Source: an uncultured Flavobacteriaceae bacterium
GTDB lineage: Bacteria > Bacteroidota > Bacteroidia > Flavobacteriales > Flavobacteriaceae
Assembly: GCA_947493535.1 (NCBI GenBank)
Contig: CANLRK010000003.1
Coordinates: 186,001 to 250,000, forward strand
Direction of reading: 5' to 3'
DNA: 64,000 nucleotides
Both the position numbers and the translations under genes were made by a program. The notes beneath the pieces were generated by a model, which made no database searches, was not told the origin of the DNA, and was given only the letters and a program-made list of their open reading frames with translations. The stretch's first letter is position 1. Each line of letters opens with the position of its first letter. This document shows, piece after piece, positions 22,732 to 26,372 of this stretch.

Positions 22732-23196
22732 TTACCTTCTGTGTGGTGGTTTTCCGTCAGTAGGTGGTCTTCTGTCTCGAAATTTCATAAGTAATTTACG
22801 ATTAAAGTCATCTTCAGCTTTTTTTAACTTAATAATTTTTTTAGCTGGAATAGCTGTTTTTAACGTTTTTATTAATGCATTTTTTTCTTGATGCATTTGA
22901 TTTTGTAAATCGGTTAGTTTAGTTAAAATGTTATGAGCTTCTTGTTCGGAAATTTCATCAAAGTTACTCTCTAACTGTTGATGTGTTTTGCGTAGTTGTT
23001 TTCTTAAATCATGACGTTTTTCTTCTGAAGCATTATATATAGGCCAAAATTTCTCGGCTTCTTGGCTGGTCAAATCAAGTTCATTTGTTATGTGAGCCGT
23101 TTTTAAGGCTTTTATTTTTTCTTTTTTCTCGTTTTGTGCTACTAGTATATTTAAACTAAATAGTAGCAATAGTGTAATGAGTATTTTGTTTTTCAT
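22732..23196 (-). CDS. Spy/CpxP-like periplasmic protein of the ECF sigma cassette
   Basis: Start placed at MKNKILITLLLLFSLNILVAQ (signal peptide, cleavage after Ala), 10 nt after the upstream gene; the longer frame overlaps that gene and is not signal-like. The mature part is an all-helical, charged protein of about 135 residues: TNELDLTSQEAEKFWPIYNASEEKRHDLRKQLRK resembles the LTxxQ region of Spy/CpxP chaperones, and the tail is basic and Pro-rich (RDRRPPTDGKPPHRR). Relatives are named sensor of ECF-type sigma factor in Flavobacteria (from memory). Position as third gene after a sigma factor and a membrane protein suggests an envelope-stress reporter; inference. Confidence 0.72.
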   Translation of the reverse strand: MKNKILITLLLLFSLNILVAQNEKKEKIKALKTAHITNELDLTSQEAEKFWPIYNASEEKRHDLRKQLRKTHQQLESNFDEISEQEAHNILTKLTDLQNQMHQEKNALIKTLKTAIPAKKIIKLKKAEDDFNRKLLMKFRDRRPPTDGKPPHRR

Positions 23197-23206
23197 AATA
23201 GGTTGC

Positions 23207-23701
23207 TTATAATTCATAATCAGTAAAGTCGTCAATAGTAGTTTCAGATGATAAATATTCAAATAAGTTGGTATCATTTAAATTGTCAAAATTAATACTA
23301 TCAAGTTCTTCGGCATTAATATTGTATAGTTCGGTAATTTCTAATGGTGATATATCAATAGGTTCGGATTCAATATAGGCTTCTAATGAAGCATACTCTA
23401 CATCGTCAAAGCTCAATTTGTTATTATTGGGTAAGAATAAGGTGATGCATAGTATGATTGTTGCTGCAACACTTATTGGGTATAGCCATTTTCTTGGTTT
23501 TGTAAGTGTAACTATTTTAGGTGATTTATCGACCGTTTTTTTAAATATAACATCCTCTATAGTATCAAAATACTTTTCTGGTGTTTTATATCCGGTTTCG
23601 TGTGGTACCTGTAAGTGCTCATATAAATTATCTTCAAAACTCTTGAAGTAATTTTTAGGAGTTGTAAACCCAGTTTTACTATGTTTATGATGCTCTTTCA
23701 T
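23207..23701 (-). CDS. putative anti-sigma factor, single-pass membrane protein
   Basis: A 164-residue protein with a soluble N-terminal part containing two tandem related units (GFTTPKNYFKSFEDNLYEHL and GYKTPEKYFDTIEDVIFKK), a membrane helix (about residues 72-89, WLYPISVAATIILCITLFL), and an acidic C-terminal domain. No zinc anti-sigma motif (HxxxCxxC) is present. Encoded 32 nt downstream of the ECF sigma gene and 10 nt before the Spy-like gene, in the place normally held by an anti-sigma factor; the two short GF/YKTPExYF units could be the sigma-binding part. The assignment rests on context and topology only. Confidence 0.6.
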   Translation of the reverse strand: MKEHHKHSKTGFTTPKNYFKSFEDNLYEHLQVPHETGYKTPEKYFDTIEDVIFKKTVDKSPKIVTLTKPRKWLYPISVAATIILCITLFLPNNNKLSFDDVEYASLEAYIESEPIDISPLEITELYNINAEELDSINFDNLNDTNLFEYLSSETTIDDFTDYEL

Positions 23702-23733: not shown

Positions 23734-24276
23734 TTAATGATGTGTTTTAATATAAAGTTCAATTTTTTTTACAGCAATATGATATGAGGTTTTAAGTGCC
23801 CCTACAGAAGTATCTAAAATTTCGGATATTTCGTCATATTTTAACGAGTCGAAATATTTCATGTTAAAAACCAATTGCTGTTTTTGAGGTAAAGTAGCAA
23901 TTGCTTTTTGTAATTGTAGTTGTGCATTATCACCATCAAAATAATCATCGGTAGCTAAATTACTTATAATTTTCTGTTGTATTTCTTCTGTTGTAGTTTG
24001 ATGTTTTTTTGCGCGCTGATTTATAAAAGTTATTGCCTCGTTTGTTGCAATACGGTACATCCATGAGAATAGTTTACTTTCTTCTTTAAACCGATCAATA
24101 TTTTTAAAAACTTTAACAAAGGTATTTTGTAATACATCATCGGCATCATCGTGATTTATGACAATTTTTCTAATATGCCAGTATAAGCGTTCCTTGTAAA
24201 TGCTCACCAGCTCTTTAAAAGCGCTATTTAGTGTTTTAGGGTTTTTAAGTTTTTTTATGAGTACTTGCTCTGTCAT
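23734..24276 (-). CDS. RNA polymerase sigma factor, ECF (sigma-70 group 4)
   Basis: A 180-residue sigma factor with region 2 (LVSIYKERLYWHIRKIVINHDDADDVLQNTFVKVFKNIDRFKEESKLFSWMYRIATNEAITFINQ in outline, ending in the -10 binding helix) and region 4 (LPQKQQLVFNMKYFDSLKYDEISEILDTSVGALKTSYHIAVKKI in outline, a helix-turn-helix for the -35/-33 element); the linker is short. Regions 1 and 3 are missing, as in ECF factors. It heads a three-gene cassette with a membrane protein and a Spy/CpxP-like protein. Target promoters unknown; autoregulation is likely but no site is evident. Confidence 0.9.
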   Translation of the reverse strand: MTEQVLIKKLKNPKTLNSAFKELVSIYKERLYWHIRKIVINHDDADDVLQNTFVKVFKNIDRFKEESKLFSWMYRIATNEAITFINQRAKKHQTTTEEIQQKIISNLATDDYFDGDNAQLQLQKAIATLPQKQQLVFNMKYFDSLKYDEISEILDTSVGALKTSYHIAVKKIELYIKTHH

Positions 24277-24364
24277 ACACGAGATTAAACCAATAGGACT
24301 TTAAAAATACAGAAAGGTTTAAAAAGGAGTTAAGTCTAAATCTAAAACAATCGATTAAATACGT

Positions 24365-24380
24365 TTTTTATCGATAAAAA
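24365..24380. promoter_or_regulatory. 16-bp AT-rich palindrome upstream of the small RNA promoter
   Basis: TTTTTATCGATAAAAA is a perfect palindrome centred about 20 nt upstream of the -33 TTG at 24393 and between the divergent sigma factor gene and the small RNA promoter. It could bind a regulator of either, or be chance in AT-rich DNA. Confidence 0.3.
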
Positions 24381-24392
24381 GCGATAAATATT

Positions 24393-24421
24393 TTGTGTGT
24401 ACTAATAATACTATATATTTG
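24393..24421 (+). promoter_or_regulatory. orphan promoter driving a candidate small RNA
   Basis: TTG (24393-24395), 18-nt spacer, TATATTTG (24414-24421): a close match to the Bacteroidota TTG-N19-TAnnTTTG consensus, as good as those of rpmH and rpsF in this window. No open reading frame of useful size follows on the plus strand before the convergent exporter gene; a strong terminator ends at 24524. Confidence 0.7.
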
Positions 24422-24427
24422 TACTAT

Positions 24428-24525
24428 TATTTTAAAGGATTAGTGTTGGTTTAGCCTGATATTTTTTAAAAGTATTTAGGTAAACACTTACAGATTAAGG
24501 CGAAACAATTGTTTCGCCTTTTTTA
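24428..24525 (+). ncRNA. candidate small RNA of about 100 nt
   Basis: Bounded by the promoter just upstream and a terminator at 24497-24524, and not overlapping any gene. The predicted RNA has a 5' stem-loop pairing AGTG-TTTA-CCT (24442-24445, 24450-24453, 24455-24457) with AGG-TAAA-CACT (24478-24488), a short linker, and the terminator hairpin. No start codon opens a frame longer than a few codons. I do not recognise it as 6S, tmRNA, RNase P or SRP RNA (the last three are longer and more GC-rich). Start and function are inference. Confidence 0.55.
24497..24524 (+). terminator. intrinsic terminator of the candidate small RNA
   Basis: A 24-bp perfect palindrome (24497-24520, arms AAGGCGAAACAA / TTGTTTCGCCTT) runs into six T (24519-24524) on the plus strand. 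On the minus strand, where the exporter gene ends 4 nt away, no T-tract follows, so the polarity points to a plus-strand transcript. It may also weakly end the exporter transcript. Confidence 0.75.
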
Positions 24526-24527
24526 TG

Positions 24528-26372
24528 TTATGCAATGGATTGCATTTGTACCAGTTTTTTGTACATGCCATTTTTATTAAGTAATTCTTGGTGTGTACCT
24601 TGTTCTACTATTTCACCTTTTTTCATTACAACAATAAGATCAGCATTTTTTATGGTAGATAATCTATGAGCGATAACAATTGAGGTCCGGTTACGCATCA
24701 TGTTTTCTAGGGCAACTTGTACGGCACGTTCACTTTCGGTATCAAGTGCTGAGGTAGCTTCATCCAGAATCATAATAGGAGGGTTTTTAAGTACGGCGCG
24801 AGCAATAGATAAGCGTTGTTTTTGTCCTCCAGAAAGTTTTCCACCACCATCCCCTATATTGGTGTCAAAACCTTGTGGTAAATCCATAATAAACTCGTAA
24901 GCATTAGCAATTTTAGCGGCTTCAATAATTTCTTGTTCACTTACATTTTCAATACCTAACTTGATATTGTTTTTAATGGTGTCGTTAAATAAAATTGAGT
25001 CCTGTGTTACTAATCCCATTAGTCCTCTTATCGATGCTTTTTTGATATTTCGAATATCTACACCATCAATTTTGATGCTACCATCATTAATATCATAAAA
25101 ACGTGTAAGTAGGTTGGCAATAGTTGATTTTCCACTACCAGATTGCCCAACCAAAGCAACTGTTTTTCCTTTAGGTACTGTTATTGAAAAGTTTTTTAAT
25201 ACGTAATCATCTTGGTATTTAAAAGAAATATTTTCGATACTGATAGTGTTGTCAAAGCTGTTTTTTTCAATAGCATCGGGTTTATCTTCCAAGGGAGATT
25301 CAGTGTTTAAAACTGCTAAAACTCTGTCGGCAGCAGCATTACCTGCTTTGACCATATAACTTGCTTTTGAAATTGCTTTTGCTGGGGTAAGTATAGTGTA
25401 GGCTAAGGCCATGTAGCCTATAAAAGCTCCTCCAGATAATGTTTTATCAACTAAAACCATACTACCTCCATACCATAAGAGAATAGATATTGTTGCAATT
25501 CCTAAAAATTCACTAGTTGGTGAGGCTAAGTTTTGACGGTGCCCAAGTGTGTTTGAAAATTTAAAAAATCGAGAGGTTGACTCTTGAAACTTTTTATTAA
25601 ATAAGGGCTCAGCATTAAAACCTTTTATAACTTTTAATCCGCTTAAAGTTTCTTCTAAGGTAGATAAAAACACACCTTGTTCAGATTGTACTTTTTCTGA
25701 ATGCTTTTTTAAACGTTTTCCTATTTTAGATATAATAAACCCAGAAACAGGAATAAAAATAAATACAAACAATGTAAGTTTTGCACTTATAATAAACATA
25801 GCTATTATTGAAAAAAGAATGGTTAAAGGTTCTTTTACAATAAGTTCTAATACGGAAAGTAATGAAATTTGTACCTGGGTAACATCTCCTGAAATTCGTG
25901 CAATAACATCACCTTTTCTTTTTTCTGAATAGTAAGCTATAGGAAGGTTAACTACTTTTTGATAGATATTATTTCTCAAATCTTTTAACACACCATTTCT
26001 TAAGTAGGTAATGTAAAAAAGTGCTAAATAGTTAAATAAGTTTTTGAACAAAAAAATACCTACAATTAATACAATCATGTATAGTAGTGCGTGTTGTGGG
26101 CCTTGTTGCTCAGAGGTAGTGGTAATAAAATAATTTAACGAATCCTCTAAATAAGGTTTGATGTTACTAAAATCATCAAGATTATTAATGCCTTTCCAAA
26201 CAGGTTTTTTAGTAAGTCGCTCTGTTTCATCAAATAGTACATTAATCATGGGCATTAATGATACCATACCTAAAGTACTAAATAAAGCGTAAAGTACATT
26301 AAAGAAAATGTTTAAGTACGCATACTTTTTATAAGGTAAAATAAACTTAGAAAGTTTTTTTATATAATCCAT
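24528..26372 (-). CDS. ABC exporter, MsbA/lipid-flippase type (fused membrane and ATPase domains)
   Basis: Half-transporter of 614 residues working as a homodimer. The N-terminal 330 or so residues form six membrane helices with coupling-loop sequence typical of type IV exporters; the C-terminal ATPase has Walker A LVGQSGSGKST, Q-loop GLVTQDSILFNDTI, signature LSGGQKQRLSIARAV, Walker B IMILDEATSALD and switch AHRLSTI. The family moves lipids, lipid A or drugs across the inner membrane; substrate not readable. Its ATG begins immediately after the stop of the phosphohexomutase gene, so the pair is translationally coupled, suggesting a role in envelope glycolipid export. Confidence 0.9.
   Translation of the reverse strand: MDYIKKLSKFILPYKKYAYLNIFFNVLYALFSTLGMVSLMPMINVLFDETERLTKKPVWKGINNLDDFSNIKPYLEDSLNYFITTTSEQQGPQHALLYMIVLIVGIFLFKNLFNYLALFYITYLRNGVLKDLRNNIYQKVVNLPIAYYSEKRKGDVIARISGDVTQVQISLLSVLELIVKEPLTILFSIIAMFIISAKLTLFVFIFIPVSGFIISKIGKRLKKHSEKVQSEQGVFLSTLEETLSGLKVIKGFNAEPLFNKKFQESTSRFFKFSNTLGHRQNLASPTSEFLGIATISILLWYGGSMVLVDKTLSGGAFIGYMALAYTILTPAKAISKASYMVKAGNAAADRVLAVLNTESPLEDKPDAIEKNSFDNTISIENISFKYQDDYVLKNFSITVPKGKTVALVGQSGSGKSTIANLLTRFYDINDGSIKIDGVDIRNIKKASIRGLMGLVTQDSILFNDTIKNNIKLGIENVSEQEIIEAAKIANAYEFIMDLPQGFDTNIGDGGGKLSGGQKQRLSIARAVLKNPPIMILDEATSALDTESERAVQVALENMMRNRTSIVIAHRLSTIKNADLIVVMKKGEIVEQGTHQELLNKNGMYKKLVQMQSIA

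Follow-up and report, generated by a model that had tools for sequence, protein, structure and literature searches.

A divergent copy of a Flavobacteriaceae small-RNA family, probably acting in trans under a putative activator, between an ECF-sigma gene and an exporter gene

The gap between an ECF-type sigma factor gene and an ABC exporter gene in the window (the whole stretch of 64,000 nucleotides analysed here) probably carries a small RNA gene that is a divergent copy of a family of Flavobacteriaceae RNAs, is activated through an operator, and acts in trans by base pairing. Comparison among relatives shows that the operator, the geometry of the promoter, two hairpins that covary, the terminator and synteny are conserved in the family, and a trans-acting sRNA under a putative activator is the most likely reading of the locus. 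An RNA that is conserved, covaries and has a defined operator would provide an sRNA regulon ready for testing; operator sites that co-occur with the RNA would give a handle on the transcription factor, and the loss of a loop motif in the lineage of the window would constitute a natural experiment. The elements of the locus are the following:

23734 to 24276, minus strand: ECF-type sigma factor gene (Pfam Sigma70_r2 and r4_2), with its 5′ end toward the RNA promoter
24277 to 24527: gap between the ECF-sigma and ABC-exporter genes, read from the sequence, holding the plus-strand sRNA locus
24352 to 24383, plus strand: putative tandem operator, with direct half-sites CGATTAAATACG (24352-24363) and CGATAAAAAGCG (24372-24383), 20 bp apart
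24392 to 24421, plus strand: promoter of the primary-sigma type, TTTG (24392-24395), 18 nt, TATATTTG (24414-24421)
24425 to 24446, plus strand: 5′ segment TATTATTTTAAAGGATTAGTGT, 22 nt identical by alignment in the copy of a same-genus genome (G001)
24426 to 24524, plus strand: predicted small RNA of about 99 nt, from a putative start near 24426 to the end of the T-run
24443 to 24491, plus strand: central stem-loop (predicted fold), with a loop lacking the CCCCAA of the family
24497 to 24524, plus strand: intrinsic terminator AAGGCGAAACAATTGTTTCGCCTT followed by TTTT, with a 24-bp perfect palindrome at 24497-24520
24528 to 26372, minus strand: ABC exporter gene (Pfam ABC_membrane and ABC_tran), with its 3′ end toward the 3′ end of the RNA

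The initial annotation had placed an RNA between the ECF sigma gene and the exporter gene, in a gap without genes on the plus strand. Gene coordinates and Pfam matches confirm this placement, and an ORF scan of the gap found no plus-strand ORF of at least 40 aa. The gap had been called downstream of the sigma gene; both genes lie on the minus strand, and it actually adjoins the 5′ end of the sigma gene, on the upstream side, and the 3′ end of the exporter gene. The RNA is thus read in the direction opposite to both genes, between the 3′ end of the exporter gene and the 5′ end of the sigma gene, which is the position of the family.

The near-consensus promoter that had been proposed to end at 24421 is readable there, with both boxes and an 18-nt spacer, and is kept in the alignment with the G001 copy. 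Excerpts of a study of Flavobacterium psychrophilum give TAnnTTTG at −12 to −5 as the flavobacterial promoter consensus (PMC9723704). The pattern TTTG-N16-19-TANNTTTG occurs nine times in the window against a shuffle mean of 4.3 (3 of 100 shuffles reach nine), which is only twice the chance number, so that the promoter pattern by itself is weak evidence. Further downstream, the 24-bp perfect palindrome previously described as running into six T is present: four T follow it, and six are obtained when the last two of the palindrome are counted. The T-run occurs on the plus strand only, and among terminator-like sites, which number five in 4 kb against a shuffle mean of 1.7, the one at 24497-24520 is the richest in G-C pairs. 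Folding of the whole RNA (24428-24525), terminator included, gives z = −4.88. The imperfect stem-loop that had been noticed between promoter and palindrome does appear as a predicted fold, but taken alone (24436-24492) it is no more stable than shuffles (z = −1.47; 13 of 200 shuffles fold equally well, not significant). With a promoter and a terminator of its own and no conserved ORF, the locus has, judged from sequence alone, the features by which a trans-acting sRNA is recognized; no common reading frame was seen among the family members inspected by eye.

Upstream of the promoter, the two direct half-sites at 24352-24383 are interpreted as the putative binding site of a regulator, and a 16-bp palindrome reported earlier at 24364-24379 is indeed there, although it is better read as a piece of this direct repeat. 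The strict operator pattern, CGATDAARWRY-N8-11-CGATDAARWRY, has one match in the window against none in 100 window shuffles, and this match is the only one in the whole 2.3-Mb genome. In the layout of the family, the half-sites are 19-21 bp apart, the distance from the second to the end of the −7 box is 50-51 bp, and the RNA is 82-125 nt long; the window operator, with 0 mismatches and its second half-site at distance 50, has this geometry. Across 42 family loci, whose derivation is given below, the best operator has at most two mismatches in 36 (0 of 840 shuffles), and in 39, among them the window, 50-51 bp separate the start of the best second half-site from the first base that follows the −7 box. 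The exceptions to this geometry are G001, L103 and L107; in G001, where the strict pattern has no match, the script took another, equally scoring site, and a site found by eye at distance 51 has four mismatches. Strict operators numbered 50 in 15 of 16 genomes, and the same pattern read backwards gave 0. Such a site is absent from seven of eight genomes without a credible RNA match, and four genomes with the RNA, which were picked for having it, contain two to seven each. Operator sites and RNA therefore tend to be gained and lost together, with G001 (RNA, no strict site) as the exception.

The operator also adjoins LacI-type and TPR-kinase genes in the loci L179-L208, both names being backed by Pfam, and further neighbours in these loci were read from the sequence as a VanX-like dipeptidase, CoA-transferase subunits, an alpha/beta hydrolase and a SixA-like phosphatase. 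The genes adjoining these operators may represent a small regulon.

The RNA is probably switched on by one putative regulator. The spacing of the half-sites and the end of the operator just before the −33 element suggest a dimeric activator, in analogy to LytTR-type regulators; half-sites 20-21 bp apart, or about two helical turns, would lie on the same face of the DNA. An operon of a TPR histidine kinase and a response regulator adjoins operator sites in four genomes (Pfam was run on one). This two-component system was rejected as the general regulator, because three genomes that carry the RNA locus (the window's own genome G000, G001 and G276) have no response-regulator match at E 1e-10.

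The conservation in Flavobacteriaceae relatives on which the initial annotation had staked its proposal was examined in 110 loci (L036-L145) retrieved on the basis of sigma-protein similarity in sets of 30 and 80, and the arrangement is syntenic in many of them. In 67 of these, no more than 700 bp separate the exporter from sigma. The exporter-sigma gap is only 58-171 bp in 14 of the 67 (12 distinct), mostly too short for an operator plus an RNA, which indicates that the RNA comes and goes among exporter-sigma loci. Exclusion of these 14 gaps below 200 bp, of nine loci without motifs (among them L085, masked at the place of the motif) and of one duplicate left 43 loci, and L040 was later dropped to give the 42. 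The A2 alignment contains 37 RNAs from loci picked for CCCCAA, CCCAAA or the 5′ motif of the window; it was made without structure information, and the longer RNAs of L103, L105, L107, L129 and L144 were left out. In an unselected set of 19 gaps that measure 200 bp or more (L036-L065, taken by sigma similarity only), CCCAA is found on the RNA strand in 15 and on the other strand in four.

In the 37 syntenic RNAs, two hairpins covary, the terminator hairpin among them, and the loop of the family hairpin is CCCCAA(A/G). Paired cells amount to 91.7% against 75.1% in shuffled alignments (reached in 0 of 500) and 48-69% in slid versions, and the covariation score is 0.697 against 0.356 (0 of 500 shuffles). 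Changes on both sides are found in 13 of 15 pairs, where the shuffled mean is 10.5 and 22 of 500 shuffles reach 13. Because G-U cells outnumber A-C cells (74 versus 13), the RNA is assigned to the plus strand of the window. What had been proposed as an independent RNA of about 98 nt is accordingly supported as one of about 99 nt, whose operator, promoter spacing, hairpins and terminator are kept at the same place in relatives.

Model R1, at E 0.01, matched 156 of 396 family genomes, covering 106 of the 237 genera sampled. That these genomes belong to Flavobacteriaceae is deduced from Flaviramulus multivorans and Algibacter marinivivus, whose genomes yield match coordinates identical to those of G072 and G267 in the set. 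Among the matches listed, 130 of 150 score at least 45 bits, 84 of the 86 that could be checked because a sigma place is also listed for the genome lie within 1.6 kb of a sigma relative, and 65 of 150 genomes with a listed sigma place lack a listed RNA match. Candidate second copies elsewhere were discarded: eight weak matches (30-39 bits, one with E 2e-4) resemble plain terminators and have no paired operator. The count of 156 therefore probably includes false matches and misses divergent copies such as that of the window. BLAST over the family likewise returned mostly terminator look-alikes. An order-wide draw of 246 genomes, 24 of which are listed, gave four matches at E 1e-4, all within the family; in searches that reached outside the family to a limited extent, the RNA has so far been seen in Flavobacteriaceae only. 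As judged from these genomes, the RNA is mostly single-copy beside an ECF-sigma gene, usually between the sigma gene and an ABC-exporter gene.

The copy in the window appears to be an unusually altered, divergent member of this family. Among four genomes of the genus, its own included, matches were found in its own genome and in G001; completeness is 80 and 82% for the remaining two. Gene order is shared with G001, whose RNA region is 74% identical over 24412-24530. The two RNAs differ in the middle, and both terminate in a GGCGAAAC stem; the hairpin of the G001 copy is another one, and its loop is CCCCAA. The window RNA is the sole one of the 42 without CCCAA, in a set partly picked for the motif. 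When membership is judged by two hairpins with a CCCCAA(A/G) loop in the first, the held-out G001 copy has the expected structure and the window copy does not. Model R1 gives the window copy 23 bits (E 0.37), although its sequence sat in the alignment of that model. Model R2, built without the genus of the window as a held-out test, locates the G001 copy precisely and on the correct strand, with 29.8 bits (E 4.9e-5 in 7 kb), and scores the window copy at 13.2 bits, which is background. Because the window copy is unseen by the models, its membership is traced in two steps, from the family to G001 by the model and from G001 to the window by sequence and synteny; the operator, the promoter spacing and the position provide the direct tie.

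No Rfam 15 family matches the window or 19 family loci (its own and that of G001 included) at the gathering score, so that the earlier statement that no family matches holds for Rfam 15 at this score, and permissive thresholds gave only matches far below the gathering score of each family. 6S-Flavo RNA (RF01685) resembles the window RNA in its length of about 100 nt and its bacterial group; it has no match in the window, and the genome carries its 6S-Flavo gene elsewhere (G000:C6:82569-82676, 101.6 bits), so that the window RNA is not 6S. The FopS sRNAs of Bacteroides (RF04319), like the new family, are small sRNAs of Bacteroidota. FopS is multi-copy, as its Rfam name (paralogous) implies, whereas most copies of the new family stand alone in their genome, next to the sigma gene; no FopS match reached the gathering score, and the match in L104 has 15 bits of the 56 needed and is on the other strand. 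The number of sRNAs studied in Flavobacteriia is, to our knowledge, small. One of them, Rfp18 of F. psychrophilum, is an independent structured sRNA of a Flavobacteriaceae species, as the new family is proposed to be, and its deletion lowers two metalloprotease mRNAs, according to excerpts of PMC9723704. The same excerpts place the pairing site of Rfp18 in a third stem-loop, whereas most members of the new family seen have two hairpins, and describe Rfp18 as widely conserved in the genus Flavobacterium (PMC9723704). The new RNA has no credible match in F. reichenbachii or F. sasangense (best 30 bits), and a metagenome bin labelled Flavobacterium sp. (L120) carries it with 47.9 bits. Rfp18 seems by description to differ from the new family, on indirect and mixed evidence, and the family may yet coincide with Rfp18 or with another of the 85 new RNAs of that study (PMC9723704). 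Among the literature matches listed, titles and abstract openings contain no description of the RNA, and a term search of PMC8632094 found neither Flavobacter nor Bacteroidetes. As far as the searches reach, the family is undescribed, its comparison with Rfp18 being by description only (PMC9723704).

In the mechanism that we propose, a regulator dimer would bind both half-sites, immediately ahead of the −33 element, and activate transcription of the RNA, which would then pair in trans via its single-stranded 5′ segment (TTAACCTACTTATG in the family, TTTTAAAGGATTAGTG in the window). Base pairing in trans is the usual role of such sRNAs. In most relatives, the CCCCAA loops may also pair with targets. 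The window copy has kept operator, promoter and terminator and lost the loop motif, and we propose that its targets have therefore narrowed or moved to the 5′ segment. A search with the first 55 nt over the start regions of the neighbouring genes in 22 loci found no consistent pairing partner.

Several other explanations share part of this evidence. The RNA could be a decoy that sequesters a protein, CsrB-like or 6S-like, with the repeated CCCCAA loops as the protein site; 20 of the 42 RNAs contain the CCCAA motif twice, on freely changing stems, which would suit a protein-binding loop too. We consider this unlikely, since the motif is wholly absent from the window copy, and the separate 6S-Flavo gene speaks against the 6S-like version. 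Alternatively, the locus might act in cis, divergent transcription or operator occupancy tuning sigma, or the RNA pairing with the 3′ end of the exporter mRNA, and the RNA would be a by-product. The tight linkage to sigma noted above fits such an action, as does the complementarity of the RNA to any exporter read-through transcript. A by-product, however, has no need of covarying hairpins, operators are found also at genes remote from sigma, and sigma and exporter are retained where the gaps shrink to 58-171 bp, all of which make action in cis improbable.

The window copy might also be a decaying remnant in a small genome of 2.3 Mb, which is compatible with the other readings of the family. 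The missing loop motif, the background score and the unremarkable central hairpin fit decay; the perfect strict operator (though it is the only strict site remaining in the genome), the 22 nt of the 5′ part identical to G001 and the perfect terminator palindrome speak against it, and we regard decay as unlikely. That there is no RNA gene at all, and that a chance promoter stands beside a terminator serving the exporter gene, is very improbable. The modest excess of the promoter pattern over chance would allow it, and some relatives have an A-run on one side of the terminator stem and a T-run on the other, so that it could function in both directions; the window has its T-run on the plus strand only, and conservation of operator, spacing, 5′ segment and hairpins argues against coincidence. 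A divergent, putatively activator-dependent sRNA acting in trans is the reading that we favour for the window.

A second tandem RNA (A) is found near sigma, in the first 300 bp upstream of it, in 11 of the 110 loci (L041, L050, L054, L072, L080, L081, L082, L085, L101, L110 and L120), ten of which are distinct, as L072 repeats L050; in L085, masking covers the position of RNA B. RNA A has the same kind of operator, and CCCCAA in 9 of the 11; five members scanned gave no Rfam match at the gathering score. L056 and L130 have a similar RNA with a different terminator. The terminator loop of RNA A, GCGGGGGC, is able to pair with AGCCCC. Because this loop can pair with the AGCCCC/GCCCC loops of both A and B, RNA A could serve as a sponge of B or as its timer. 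We tentatively suggest a scheme in which one putative activator drives, through similar operators, either a single sRNA or, at ten or more distinct loci, two sRNAs in tandem, A pairs with the loops of A and B, and the lineage of the window has kept one RNA with its pairing part rewired.

The sigma side of the gap has features of its own. The promoter consensus of ECF sigma factors consists of AAACCTTT and GTC boxes. On the minus strand at 24297-24325, upstream of sigma, the sequence TTAAACCTTT...AAAGTC is kept, by eye, even in the gaps of 58-171 bp, and looks like an autoregulated ECF promoter of the sigma gene. The two genes that follow sigma on the minus strand (23207-23701 and 22732-23277) have no Pfam match. 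Relatives of both also follow sigma at other loci, as seen by eye, and the product of the first (23207-23701) may be an anti-sigma factor.
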